Assembly: GCA_013298955.1 (NCBI GenBank) | Contig: JAAFJT010000008.1 | Span: 1 to 64,000, forward strand | From: Chitinophagales bacterium | GTDB lineage: Bacteria; Bacteroidota; Bacteroidia; Chitinophagales; Saprospiraceae | Reading direction: 5' to 3' | Length of the DNA stretch: 64,000 bases | Shown here: piece after piece, positions 1 to 34,400 of the stretch | Layout: each line of letters opens with the position of its first letter | How positions within the stretch are numbered: the first letter of the stretch is position 1 | The notes under the pieces: model-generated | Told to the model about the DNA's origin: nothing | Database searches by the model: none | Seen by the model: only the letters and a program-made list of their open reading frames with translations | Program-made: the position numbers and the translations under genes

Positions 1-123
1 AAAGCATCCTTACAATCCTTCACATCATCAGCATCCTATTTCAAAAGCATCCTTACAATCCTTCACATCATCAGCATCCTAATTCAAAAAGCATCCTTCA
101 CATCATCAGCATCCTAATTCAAA
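1..123. repeat. Array of right-arm copies of the 'aatccttcacatcatcagcatcctatttc' family (family T)
   Basis: Three adjacent copies of (at)ccttcacatcatcagcatcctA/Tttc read directly; abuts the stop codon of the GxxExxY ORF. Confidence 0.9.
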
Positions 124-688
124 CCTTCTTGCCTTTTCGTTTATCATATTGCATCTTATGAAGCACCCACGCAGGAATATAATTGCGCAATTCAAATAAA
201 TCATCGGACGGTTCGCCGACCATTTCGGGCGTAATCGGTTGCGTTAGGGCATCGGGTTGAAAGCGATTGTTGAAAAGATGCTTAAATTGAAGTTGAATCG
301 TACCGAAATTGTAAAGCAGCCCCGCAGGAATATTCAATTGTTGCAGCGTATTGATAGCTTGCACAAAATCAACATCCGTTAATTGGCTTTTGGCTTTGAC
401 TTCAATAGTGACCTTGCCTTCGCAGAGAAAATCGACCCTTCGGTAAGCAATACGCAAGTTTTTGTAATGAATCGGCAACCAAACTTCTCGTTGAAAAGCA
501 ATCCCTGCTAAATTCAGTTCGATTGCCAACGCTCGACAATAAACATACTCCATATTGCCGATGCCCAAAGTCGTGCTGACACGCATAGCACAGGCATTGA
601 GTCGGTAGGTTAAATCCCCTTTTTCCATCATAGTTGTTTGTAATGGGTGAATAAAGCCCAAAAGTAACGCGTTTTTGATATTGGGCAA
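119..688 (-). CDS. GxxExxY family protein (PD-(D/E)XK nuclease-like, PDDEXK_3)
   Basis: Signature GNMEYVY (GxxExxY), then RRVDFLCEGKVTIEVKAK, matching a D...ExK nuclease core; initiation could be at the internal MMEKGDLTYRLN. Confidence 0.85.
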   Translation of the reverse strand: MPNIKNALLLGFIHPLQTTMMEKGDLTYRLNACAMRVSTTLGIGNMEYVYCRALAIELNLAGIAFQREVWLPIHYKNLRIAYRRVDFLCEGKVTIEVKAKSQLTDVDFVQAINTLQQLNIPAGLLYNFGTIQLQFKHLFNNRFQPDALTQPITPEMVGEPSDDLFELRNYIPAWVLHKMQYDKRKGKKV

Positions 689-696
689 CGTTTTTG

Positions 697-908
697 AAAT
701 AGGATGCTGATGATTTGAAGGATTGAAAGGATGTTTTGAGTAAAAATTTGCGCTTTTCAGTAGAAAATATCCTTCAAATCCTTCAAATCATCAGCATCCT
801 ATTTCAAAAAATATCCTTCAAATCCCTCACATCATCAGCATCCTATTTCAAAAAATACCCTTCACATCATCAGCATCCTATTTCAAAAAGCATCCTTTTG
901 AATCCTTT
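697..908. repeat. Family T palindrome (697-~810) followed by extra tandem right arms
   Basis: gaaataggatgctgatgatttgaaggattgaaaggatgtttt pairs with aaaatatccttcaaatccttcaaatcatcagcatcctatttc; further copies follow to ~908. Confidence 0.9.
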
Positions 909-1030
909 TTGCCCTGTTGAAGGCTTTGAGGAGTGCTTTTTTCTGAGTTTCAGATAATACGCGTTCTGCCTGTTCAGCTATTGGAATTGCTTCTTGAACT
1001 TCTCGTTTCCTGCATCATTGCCTTGATGCG

Positions 1031-1430
1031 TTATCTCAAATCGTTCCAGCTCGCTTCATCATGTAACGATTTGAGATAACGTTCATATTCCAAGCCTTTG
1101 CGTTTCGGGAGTTTGGCAATGGCTAATTTTTCTTTCGCCTTGTCTATGCCTTTGGCGGTGAAATCATCCTCGACTTTAGCATTTTTGAACAAATACACCC
1201 ATTCATCCAACGTATCGTTGATTTCGCCTGAAAATTCTAAGGCTTGAACCAAGTAATATTCGGTATAAATTCGAGAAAATAAAATTTTGTTTGCTATTCC
1301 TCATTCAAAACGAGTTCATCGTTGAGATGCATGCCTTTGAAAACGGTATAGCCATGATAGATATAATCATCGACACGATTCCATTTGGCTTTTTTGCGCG
1401 ATTGATTGCCTTCGCTCTCTTAGATTTCTA
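1031..1430 (-). pseudogene. Rpn-family (PD-(D/E)XK transposase/nuclease) C-terminal remnant, frameshifted
   Basis: Conceptual translation ...YTVFKGMHLNDELVLNEE(frameshift)NKILFSRIYTEYYLVQALEFSGEINDTLDEWVYLFKNAKVEDDFTAKGIDKAKEKL... resembles Rpn C-terminal regions; no intact catalytic N-terminus found. Confidence 0.65.
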
Positions 1431-1796
1431 AAATGAGGATCTTTTTCCAAAAGAAAGTGGTATCCAAATTCAACTTTTTGCGTTTGCTTACGCAATTTTT
1501 TTGTACAAAAATCGTTTTGGAAACGATATAATGCCATTTGCGGCATGATTTTTTCTGCAAACGAAAAGTTCCTTCTTCGCCAGCAAACAAAGCCTCCGAC
1601 TCCAACCAGAATTAATTGTTTATCAACAAATCCCAAGCGTATTTCGCACACTTCATAATAACTATTGTAGGGTGCTGCATTTCAAATGCGGTGCTGCAAC
1701 ATCGTTATTAGGTTGTATGGTCATTGATTATCAAAATATTGGTAATCAATAATTTCAATATTAAAAAAAAATAATTTCAAAAAACAAATGTTCTTT

Positions 1797-1804
1797 TATC
1801 TTTG
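1797..1804 (+). promoter_or_regulatory. Candidate Bacteroidota -7 element TAtcTTTG upstream of the coiled-coil gene
   Basis: tatctttg match to TAnnTTTG; -33 box weak. Confidence 0.4.
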
Positions 1805-1935
1805 CCAAAAGCAAACATAACCAAATTTTATTTTAAGTTTTCATTAACGTAACGAGTGTGTGACGAGACCTTTTAAAGATAGTCTTTAAAACGTAATTCT
1901 TATTCCACACTAAAAAAATCAAAACAAACGTCATT

Positions 1936-3174
1936 ATGAGTAGTTCTCAAAATCAAGATTCGAGAGGCAAATTGTTACCTTGGGCGGGCGCGATTATTGT
2001 AGCTTTGTTAGGCACAAACGCGTATCTTTGGACCAACAAGAGTACGACCGAAACGAAATTAGGCGAGACCGTCAAAGTTTTGGATGACACCAAAACCGTA
2101 AGAGATTCATTACAAAGGGTTTATGAAGCGGCTGTCGTTGAATTGGAAGGCATGAAAGGTAAAAACTCCGAGTTGAACCTTGCCATTGATAAGCAAAAAG
2201 CAGATTTGCAATCGCAAAAAAGTAAGATTGATGCGGCTTTATCGTCTGGTAACAAGGACAAAAAAGCATTGCAAGAGGCTTTGCGTCAGATTGAGGAGTT
2301 GAAATCGCAAGCAGCAGGCGCGTTGGCACAAGTGAGCGATTTGCAAAACAAATTGGGCGTTGTCCAAGAACAGTTGAAAACGGAGGTGAAGGCAAAAGAG
2401 GAAGTCACCGCGAAATTAACAGAAGTCACCACTGCGCACAAGGAAACGGAAACCAAATTGGCTACGACTTCCGAAGCAAAAGGCAAATTGGAAGAGGAAA
2501 AAAAGAAATTGGATAATAAGGTGGATGTCGCAAGTGTCGTCCGCGTGAACAATTTCGATGACCCACAAGGGTTTGAAGTGAGCAAGAAAAATGGCAAAGA
2601 AAGCTCTGTCAGCAAGGCGCAAAACATGGAAAGAGTGCGTTTTTGTTTCGATGCACAGGAAAATCATGTGGCAAAAGCGGGTTCTGAGTCGTTTTATGTA
2701 GCCATACAAGATGCCACTGGGGTCACGATTGAAGGACCGGGCGGCGGCGTAACGAAGTTGAATGACGGTACGGAAGCGAAATACACGTTTGTTCAAACCC
2801 AAGAATTGTCCAATGCAGCTCATAAAGTTTGTACGCAATGGGATCCAGCTACGAAATTACAAAAAGGAAGCTATAACATTTCGTTCCAACGCCCATCAAG
2901 TAACGCGGTTTATCCGCAGGCAGGATGTTACAAACCAAATCCGTCATGGCATACATGTCTTCCGCAGGTTCGCCAACGGATAATCCGCCAATCGCATTGC
3001 CTTCTCTGCCAAAACTCGCTATCGTCTCTGCGGACTCTATGCGCAAATCTTTATACGTACTGCCTTGAACAATCGGGAAAAACGCTTGTGGATAATCATA
3101 ATGCGATTCCGTCGAATCAAAACGCTCACAACACCGCTTCAACCAACGATGCGTTAAACCTAATGAATTTTTAG
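1936..3174 (+). CDS. Coiled-coil membrane-anchored protein; the last ~95 aa are out-of-context sequence antisense to tgt
   Basis: N-terminal TM segment (LPWAGAIIVALLGTNAYLW), long K/E/Q coiled coil, then a beta-type domain; the frame runs into tgt antisense after ~2881. Confidence 0.7.
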   Translation: MSSSQNQDSRGKLLPWAGAIIVALLGTNAYLWTNKSTTETKLGETVKVLDDTKTVRDSLQRVYEAAVVELEGMKGKNSELNLAIDKQKADLQSQKSKIDAALSSGNKDKKALQEALRQIEELKSQAAGALAQVSDLQNKLGVVQEQLKTEVKAKEEVTAKLTEVTTAHKETETKLATTSEAKGKLEEEKKKLDNKVDVASVVRVNNFDDPQGFEVSKKNGKESSVSKAQNMERVRFCFDAQENHVAKAGSESFYVAIQDATGVTIEGPGGGVTKLNDGTEAKYTFVQTQELSNAAHKVCTQWDPATKLQKGSYNISFQRPSSNAVYPQAGCYKPNPSWHTCLPQVRQRIIRQSHCLLCQNSLSSLRTLCANLYTYCLEQSGKTLVDNHNAIPSNQNAHNTASTNDALNLMNF

Positions 3175-9734: not shown

Positions 9735-9871
9735 GCGATACAAATTGGAACACGGATGACGCGGATTGGGCGGATTTTCGCGGATTTTCGCGGATTTTTC
9801 ATTTTCGTACAAAAATAAAAAATCCGCGAAAATCCGCCCAATCCGCGTCATCTGTGTTCCAATAGTATCGC
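9735..9871. repeat. Family G palindrome
   Basis: gcgatacaaattggaacacggatgacgcggattgggcggatttt...aaaatccgcccaatccgcgtcatctgtgttccaatagtatcgc. Confidence 0.9.
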
Positions 9872-14797: not shown

Positions 14798-15014
14798 TAA
14801 ACACATAGTTCACATAAGGGGACATAGGACACATAGGACACATAGGGGCAATAGGGGCAATAGGGGACATAGAGGCAACCCTTCTATTTTTGGATGTAAA
14901 ATGATCAAAATCAATGTATTGAATCTAAATCATAAACAAATACATTAAAAATTTAAACTATGTGTTCTATGTCCCCTTATGTGTTCTATGTTCCCTTATG
15001 TGAACTATGTGTTT
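14798..15014. repeat. Family C palindrome
   Basis: acacatagt/tcacataag/gggacatag/gacacatag/gacacatag/gggcaatag ... right arm ctatgtgttctatgtccccttatgtgttctatgttcccttatgtgaactatgtgttt. Confidence 0.9.
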
Positions 15015-24662: not shown

Positions 24663-24895
24663 TAACACATAGGTTACATAGAAGACATAGGACACATAGG
24701 TTACATATACTTTGCGTTGAGTGGTTCTGTACTATTGGAACGCGGATGACGCGGATTGGGCGAATTTTCACGGATTTTTCCTAATTTTTGCACTGAATTT
24801 CAAAAAAAATCCGTGCGAATCCGCCCAATCCGCGTCATCCGCGTTCCAATAATACAGAACCACTCAATGCAAAGTATATGTGACCTATGTGTTTA
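24663..24895. repeat. Composite nested palindrome (family C outer, tatactttgcg middle, family G inner)
   Basis: Outer aacacataggttacat.../...gtgacctatgtgttt; middle atactttgcgttgagtggttctgta/tacagaaccactcaatgcaaagtat; inner ggaacgcggatgacgcggattgggcg. Confidence 0.92.
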
Positions 24896-30346: not shown

Positions 30347-31708
30347 ATGTTTCAATTGATAATCAACAAATTAGGTATCTTTATTCCCACTTTTTTAGCC
30401 ATCACGTTACTCTCTTTTAGTTTGCAGGAGGCGGCTCCCGGCGATCCTGTCGAAAGGATTTTAGGTCATAACAGCACGAGTGCCATCTCCGAAGAAGCAT
30501 ATCATGCAACGGCGATTCAATTGAAGCGGGATAAACCTTTTTTTTACGGCACGCTTTCGACCCAAGCCTTTCCAGATACACTGTATCGGTTGGTGCGCAA
30601 AGACCGAATCACGGCGTTGTCTTCCAAAATCATCGCTTTTGGAAATTGGACGCTTATTGCCGCTTATGACCGACAATTGATGGCATTGAAAAACGCATCG
30701 AAAGGCGAAAATATACAAAAAGTGTTAGAACGATGCGCCATCAATGAGCATCCACAACAAGAACAAACGCTTTTGAAGGAAGCCGCACAATTAGCATCTG
30801 CTTCGCAAAAGTTTCAAACGGAAGTCGCTGATTTACAAACAACTTATCAAACATTAAGTCAAAATTCGACTTTATGGAAATTATATATTCCAAAATTAAA
30901 TTGGTATGGCATTGATAATCAATATCATCACTGGCTTTGCGCCATGCTTCGCGGCGATTTTGGCATCTCGCACACCACGAAACGGAGCGTTTTGGCAACC
31001 CTTTATTTCCCCCTCAAAGTGACTTTATGGATGAGCTTAGGTGCGATTGTGGGAGCTTTTTTGGTGGGTACAGGGTTTGGCATTTGGCTGGCGCGAGTGC
31101 GTAAAACGGGTGTTAGCTACTTTATTTCAAACTTTTTGTTTATTTTACATGCGTTACCAACTTTTTTAGTAGCGACGTGCATGGTGCTTTTTCTGACCAG
31201 TGGATTTTTCATAGAACCCGTCAATATGATTGGTTTGGCGGCAGATACCGTCGAAACGGATGAATTTAGCACTTTTTTGTATAAAAATGGCTTATTACTT
31301 TTATTGCCAACGGTTTGTATTGGGTATCGGTTGATGGTCGTGGTAGCGCGCCATTTACAAATGTCGTTATTAGATGAGTTTAAAAAAGAATATGTCCAAA
31401 CGGCGCGGGCAAAAGGCATGCGCGAACCCCAAATTGTTTATTACCAAATGTTAAAAAACGCCGCATTTCCTTTGATAACCTTGTTTGGGCAGACGTTTCC
31501 CTTAGCGGTGGCGGGTTCAGTGGCGGTGGAAATCATATTTAACATTCATGGCATGGGTTCGGCTGCTTATAATGCTTTGGCGGAGCATAATTATCCTGTG
31601 ATTTATGTGATAGTGCCGTTATCGGCGTTGGTTGCGATGACGGGCAGTTTGATTGCGGACGTATTATATAGGTATGCGCACCCCCAAAAAGGCAGCAATT
31701 TGAATTAG
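30347..31708 (+). CDS. ABC transporter permease (OppB-like) with enlarged periplasmic region
   Basis: LLSFSLQEAAPGDPVERILG; EYVQTARAKGMREPQIVYYQMLKNA. Confidence 0.9.
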   Translation: MFQLIINKLGIFIPTFLAITLLSFSLQEAAPGDPVERILGHNSTSAISEEAYHATAIQLKRDKPFFYGTLSTQAFPDTLYRLVRKDRITALSSKIIAFGNWTLIAAYDRQLMALKNASKGENIQKVLERCAINEHPQQEQTLLKEAAQLASASQKFQTEVADLQTTYQTLSQNSTLWKLYIPKLNWYGIDNQYHHWLCAMLRGDFGISHTTKRSVLATLYFPLKVTLWMSLGAIVGAFLVGTGFGIWLARVRKTGVSYFISNFLFILHALPTFLVATCMVLFLTSGFFIEPVNMIGLAADTVETDEFSTFLYKNGLLLLLPTVCIGYRLMVVVARHLQMSLLDEFKKEYVQTARAKGMREPQIVYYQMLKNAAFPLITLFGQTFPLAVAGSVAVEIIFNIHGMGSAAYNALAEHNYPVIYVIVPLSALVAMTGSLIADVLYRYAHPQKGSNLN

Positions 31709-31726: not shown

Positions 31727-31824
31727 GAAATAGGATGCTGATGATTGGAAGGATTACAAGGATATTTTGAGTTCTTCAAACAAAATATCTTTGTAATCCT
31801 TCCAATCATCAGCATCCTATTTCG
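31727..31824. repeat. Family T palindrome
   Basis: gaaataggatgctgatgattggaaggattacaaggatattttg / caaaatatctttgtaatccttccaatcatcagcatcctatttc; one mismatch. Confidence 0.95.
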
Positions 31825-34325: not shown

Positions 34326-34400
34326 AAACACATAGGACACATAAAACACATAGGACACATAGATTTCATAGGACACATAGATTTCATAGGACACATAGGG
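34326..34400. repeat. Family C single arm, eight consecutive nonamers
   Basis: cacatagga/cacataaaa/cacatagga/cacatagat/ttcatagga/cacatagat/ttcatagga/cacataggg. Confidence 0.9.

Follow-up and report, generated by a model that had tools for sequence, protein, structure and literature searches.

The closest described counterparts of the locus considered here are the REP and REPIN repeats with their RAYT (TnpA-REP) proteins, in which a gene lies amid palindromes of its own, gene-less hairpins occupy intergenic positions by the hundreds, and repeat and protein co-evolve (PMC3116915, PMC8266576, PMC3733652). A second relevant system is that of the intervening sequences of 23S rRNA, whose protein is S23 and which are excised by RNase III (PMC4990558). 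GxxExxY proteins, the subject of this study, form a large family with an essentially undescribed function, hardly named, and then in passing, in those parts of the literature that were accessible to us. Our search, which did not extend to most subscription journals or to any preprints, returned no literature linking GxxExxY to repeats, and the repeat strings of the arms reported below were likewise not found in the literature.

Here, we describe GxxExxY loci that suggest a mobile element of a kind not described before, which would spread hairpins and whose logic is like that of REP/RAYT. The starting point was a window comprising the first 64 kb (64,000 nucleotides) of contig C183, from a draft genome of 4.68 Mb, in which a GxxExxY gene is embedded in palindromes of one family, termed T. 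The features of this locus, together with a distant copy of the palindrome, are as follows (palindromes and arms are given without strand):

1-123: family T right arms, three in tandem (1-43, 44-86 and 79-121), at the gene's 3' end
119-688, minus strand: GxxExxY gene (PD-(D/E)XK, Cas4/RecB-like), clade A, 189 aa from a TTG start
691-810: family T palindrome in full, at the gene's 5' end, with arms at 691-737 and 764-810 around a loop at 738-763
808-889: two more tandem family T right arms (808-854 and 843-889)
31727-31823: solo family T palindrome without a gene, immediately downstream of the ORF at 30347-31708

This architecture is largely as the initial annotation had described it. The 3' end of the gene does run into three T right arms, the third of which contains the stop codon (119-121); a full palindrome does lie close to the 5' end, with more arms behind it; and the window does hold a single other, gene-less T palindrome, at about the position given. 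The two arms of the complete palindrome are 94% complementary and enclose a 26-nt loop, and T-arm matches number 9 in the window versus 0 expected in shuffles. As position 1 is also the start of the contig, the left side of the T array is cut off. An Rfam scan of window positions 1-2000 yielded nothing above the gathering scores and no rRNA, and miRNA-like sub-threshold matches in this interval were set aside because they reflect the long hairpin only. On the minus strand at 901-1740, we noted a frameshifted remnant similar to the C-terminus of a PD-(D/E)XK nuclease family transposase, with a sub-threshold match to PF12784 (E=0.001).

The GxxExxY signature and the D...ExK core, both previously proposed for the ORF at 119-688, were confirmed by matches to PF13366 (2.3e-27) and TIGR04256 (6e-28), with scores of 97.6 and 96.1 bits that exceed the curated cut-offs (35 bits for TIGR04256 and 22 bits for PF13366), as well as by the presence of both GNMEYVY and RVDF...IEVK in the protein; internal ATG codons are located ~20 residues downstream of the TTG start. 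More specifically, the PD-(D/E)XK core residues D, E, and K do not vary in GxxExxY alignments of 31 and 47 rows, and the window protein has all three. The Q and Y of the QxxxY motif are nearly invariant across the alignments, and in the window protein this Tyr is replaced by Thr. Because the protein is also divergent, with a long end branch (0.91) in the protein tree, it may be decaying. A structure model reached a pLDDT of ~90 or above across most of the core, and its best fold matches, with modest E-values, were the Cas4 family (Cas4 SSO0001, 4ic1, probability 1.00, E 4e-3) and MGME1/exonuclease folds; no relatives were found in the PDB by sequence search. Judging by this model, the GxxExxY protein is akin to the DNA nucleases of Cas4/RecB/MGME1 type. 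It shares with Cas4/RecB nucleases the D, ExK, and QxxxY motifs, and differs from them in being encoded by a stand-alone gene of ~130 aa, for which no CRISPR or RecBCD context was seen.

With REP/RAYT systems, GxxExxY loci have in common genes flanked by their own palindromes, hundreds of gene-less intergenic hairpins, and the co-evolution of repeat with protein. They differ in the protein, which is of the PD-(D/E)XK type whereas RAYT is an HUH tyrosine transposase, and in the arms, which are arrays of ~9-bp words extending over 40-50 bp, often with the gene inside the hairpin. Between the window repeats, we found no HUH/Y1 tyrosine transposase; the PD-(D/E)XK protein is the only one there, and a Pfam scan assigned no other domain to it. 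Neither a GTAG nor a CGTC tag is present in the T arms at 691-737 and 764-810. Since the element has no HUH protein and T has neither tag, the window element is not a member of REP/RAYT. A resemblance also exists to MITEs and small insertion sequences, which are likewise short inverted-repeat units of high copy number in intergenic positions, the difference being that the GxxExxY element is without a DDE or HUH transposase inside.

The initial annotation had regarded T as one gene-bearing locus plus one solo copy, which does not hold for the genome as a whole: we counted 197 T-arm matches genome-wide, against 0 for a reversed-pattern control. All 29 of the 29 distinct paired T copies examined in this genome lie outside ORFs of at least 120 aa, and the genome has one clade A GxxExxY gene, such that T constitutes a population of high-copy intergenic palindromes tied to a single gene. 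Many T copies, in both orientations, have a loop sequence in common, indicating that the hairpin is copied as a whole unit.

The genome contains three GxxExxY genes; each has a palindrome family of its own on its flanks and falls in a separate clade of the protein tree, i.e., clade A (the window gene), clade C (on contig C140), and clade D (on contig C71). Palindromes of the word CGCGGATGA surround the gene on C140 and palindromes of the word CACATAGGA that on C71, and all three words (T, C, and D) repeat with a ~9 bp period. Dispersed arm matches amount to 646 for family C and 447 for family D. Both families have many copies in the window, with their cognate genes on other contigs:

9747-9860: family C solo palindrome (word CGCGGATGA), cognate to the C140 gene
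11910-12031, 22710-22861, 22921-23020, 24737-24847, 28127-28237, 41822-41931, 59626-59736: further family C copies
14802-15011: family D palindrome (word CACATAGGA), cognate to the C71 gene
3648-3754, 45544-45669, 62475-62805: further family D copies
24684-24701, 34329-34400: family D single-strand arms

These correspond to 17 family C arms (0.02 expected) and 29 family D matches (0.01 expected) in the window.

GxxExxY genes were carried by 59 of 101 genomes of the same family and order. We assembled the GxxExxY loci of these carriers together with 80 loci from public genomes, covering more than 10 phyla; the cross-phylum sample has a bias towards clade B, because the collection scan was run with a clade B alignment, the broad one (A1) being too diverse for this purpose. 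With a spanning inverted repeat defined as one scoring at least 16 with 400-bp flanks, such repeats enclose 85/152 GxxExxY genes, versus 5/388 intergenic-flanked control ORFs (from ATG-only ORF calling) and 0/760 shuffles. The expectation that GxxExxY genes sit beside palindromes more often than random genes was therefore correct (odds ratio 97 relative to control ORFs, p ~4e-50); for 44% of the GxxExxY genes, no spanning repeat was detected at the cut-off of at least 16. Spanning repeats occur in Bacteroidota, Cyanobacteriota, Acidobacteriota, Planctomycetota, Verrucomicrobiota, Chloroflexota, and others, and the arm arrays include CACTAAGGG, CGCAAAGGC, ACACGGATGA, and TTGTCTGAATTAGGATTT. GxxExxY flanks have an excess of self-matches at lags of 8-9 bp that control flanks do not show; the aggregate signal is modest because words and phases vary by locus. 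One locus in viral contigs and 8 plasmid records led us to discard the idea of a typical phage or plasmid gene. Among the 80 loci L064-L143, 11 have a contig end within 600 bp of the gene, as would follow from arms interrupting short-read assembly.

The word of the arms matches the clade of the protein. The words of clades A-D are of the GGATTT, CGCAAAGG, ACACGGATG, and CACATAGG types, and among 107 elements arm-word similarity correlates with protein similarity (r=0.55, 0/2000 permutations). When words were permuted among genes of the same genome, the observed value of 0.51 compared with 0.29 +/- 0.06 (0/5000), so host background is not the source of this correlation. The two arms of an element are moreover kept in concert, as they match one another better than arms swapped within the clade among independent loci (four clades, 0-1/5000 permutations each). 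For orthologous Flavobacterium elements, left/right arm covariation was not significant (own pairs 24.5 versus swapped pairs 23.2, 718/10000), because the orthologues are too similar. The clade A outer end motif is present in 15/21 genomes with a known clade A gene versus 11/80 others (p=6e-7), and the word of clade C in 5/5 genomes known to carry that clade versus 12/96 others (p=8e-5).

On our best reading, these loci would represent a counterpart of REPIN/RAYT that relies on an unrelated nuclease, and we consider it probable that the gene-bearing element in the window belongs to a class of hairpin elements that is widespread. The earlier suggestion of REP/RAYT-type logic with a nuclease fold is supported in that the word matches the protein clade and the fold is unrelated to RAYT. 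In these elements, a small Cas4/RecB-like nuclease is encoded between inverted arrays of ~9-bp words, with a word particular to each protein clade and the two arms of each element kept matched. In the mechanism that we propose, the nuclease would recognise its own word array in the folded (single-stranded or cruciform) hairpin and cut it, and repair or strand transfer would then copy the unit, with or without the gene, to other intergenic sites. We infer this sequence of reading, cutting, and copying as somewhat better than an even prospect. One gene per family could in this manner sustain a large non-autonomous hairpin population, as RAYT is thought to do for REPINs, and the tandem arm arrays at 1-123 and 808-889 might represent local amplification through the same cut-and-repair process. 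Tandem amplification of arms beside the 3' end of the gene is seen in the three T arms at window 1-123, and in another genome (L382 in G232, ~577-931) a tail-plus-arm unit is repeated ~3 times beside the 3' end of the gene. These findings provide the GxxExxY family with a concrete context and with a candidate, testable substrate, namely its own word array. If the proposal is true, it would account for periodic intergenic repeats that form a large class in environmental bacteria and would add a second protein fold to the question, familiar from REP/RAYT, of how hairpins spread in genomes.

The units are present at some sites and absent from the orthologous sites of relatives. Sphingomonas parapaucimobilis carries an element between fabD and fabG, its arms being TTCACGCGAAGGCGCGAGGACGCGAAG and TCTTCGCGGCTTCGCGTGAA, and the site in S. 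paeninsulae is empty; similarly, Bacteroides finegoldii has a similar element between radA and an FAD gene, and Parabacteroides distasonis is without it. At one orthologous Flavobacterium site (query L246:4300-6100; L345-L384), searched in 150 Flavobacterium genomes, some species have GxxExxY elements carrying the gene, others have gene-less palindromes of a similar word or of a clade C-like word, an alternative occupant is a GIY-YIG gene with a different palindrome, and elsewhere the site is empty. The occupants of this single intergenic slot have turned over repeatedly. At the empty sites found for fabD-fabG, radA-FAD, and Flavobacterium, the flanks are too diverged to define a target-site duplication.

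The main rival to our reading is homing into palindromes that were spread otherwise, whereby the nuclease would cut existing palindromes of its own word and repair would copy the gene only, the palindromes themselves being spread by another agent (RAYT, another transposase, or replication errors). Such a passenger would fit the position of the gene between two complete palindromes, as if dropped into an array, in the window, on C140, and in Gemmatirosa, as well as the gene-bearing and gene-less forms of a similar word at the Flavobacterium site and the occupation of that slot by two nuclease folds (GxxExxY and GIY-YIG). Free-standing homing endonuclease genes (GIY-YIG and PD-(D/E)XK) are comparable in being small nuclease genes in intergenic slots, for which the GIY-YIG occupant in Flavobacterium is a case in point; they are not known, however, to lie within inverted arrays of words or to have large families of dispersed copies without the gene. 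In their simplest form (Bacteroides, Sphingomonas, and Flavobacterium), GxxExxY elements consist of one arm, the gene, and one arm where relatives are empty, such that gene and arms can arrive jointly, and the shared T loops imply copying of the hairpin as a unit. Given this evidence, we regard homing as unlikely.

An RNA-level role may be considered because the same architecture, with 7-bp words, encloses S23 genes. In related genomes (L144-L173), S23/four-helix-bundle (TIGR02436) genes lie within inverted arrays of 7-bp words, e.g., AGGTTAG, GACGGTT, and TGGGTAT; 19 of 29 TIGR02436 genes have a spanning repeat scoring at least 14, and their flanks have strong autocorrelation at 7, 14, and 21 bp. 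The genome of the window has no TIGR02436 match. The likeness to 23S rRNA intervening sequences extends to a small gene within an inverted-repeat element and to inverted word arrays around TIGR02436 genes outside rRNA, whereas the S23 protein is unrelated to GxxExxY, the words measure 7 rather than 9 bp, and the window site is intergenic and not in rRNA. If the arms acted in transcripts, in the manner of these intervening sequences, they could be RNase III substrates or protective hairpins that render insertion into operons harmless, with the protein handling RNA or being a passenger. Elements do lie inside operons between co-directional genes, and S23 genes belong to RNase III-excised elements (PMC4990558) with the same inverted arrays. 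Set against this, the GxxExxY protein is similar to DNA nucleases, and an RNase III stem needs no clade-specific periodic words, leaving an RNA-level explanation quite improbable.

Since S23 genes encode non-nucleases and share the architecture, nuclease action is not the whole explanation of the class. It is conceivable, at somewhat less than even confidence, that GxxExxY and S23 proteins together define a new class of hairpin-borne elements, in which the proteins read periodic DNA words of ~9 and 7 bp, respectively, in the folded arms and, by a route unrelated to known transposases, cause hairpins without the gene to spread in many bacterial phyla, the 23S rRNA intervening sequences being the branch inserted into rRNA. 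The long-unexplained intervening sequences may in this way be linked to a general class of elements.

The distribution of families across genomes bears on whether the nuclease spreads its repeats or restrains them. Family T was absent from all 60 other genomes searched, including a same-genus genome without GxxExxY, and family C was also absent from this latter genome. The prediction that genomes without the gene lack dispersed copies held to this extent and failed in genomes G014 and G077, in which palindrome copies of other families are present and no GxxExxY gene was detected. As such gene-less genomes keep copies, the relationship is a strong association and not a rule. The copies in G014 and G077 are possibly relics after gene loss. 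GxxExxY might instead be a nuclease, of the host or of the element, by which the cognate repeats are cleared or kept in check rather than spread, and its word specificity and Cas4-like fold would be suitable for such a task too; very high copy numbers in the genome with three genes, and the lack of both T and C (the two families searched there) in the same-genus genome without the gene, make this a remote prospect. That GxxExxY genes just happen to sit in repeat-rich intergenic regions is hardly credible, even in a genome full of palindromes and with contigs often ending near these genes, as the intergenic-flanked control ORFs and shuffles were negative and the adjacent word is that of the gene's own clade beyond within-genome permutation.

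Small GIY-YIG nuclease genes were also seen between palindromes such as CCTGAACTAGTTTCAGGATC / GATGCTGAAATAAATTCAGCAT or GTCATCCCGAACTTGTTTCGGGATCTT (L374-L377; L385, L387, L409, and L410). We considered them as an equal partner class and rejected this, given that 7/28 have a spanning repeat of at least 14, a weaker signal from an ordinary type of palindrome. Lastly, the genome of the window (G000) contains a further family, TGGTCTGAATTAGGATTT and its variants, with 21 copies, which resembles the clade A end motif TTGTCTGAATTAGGATTT of other genomes.
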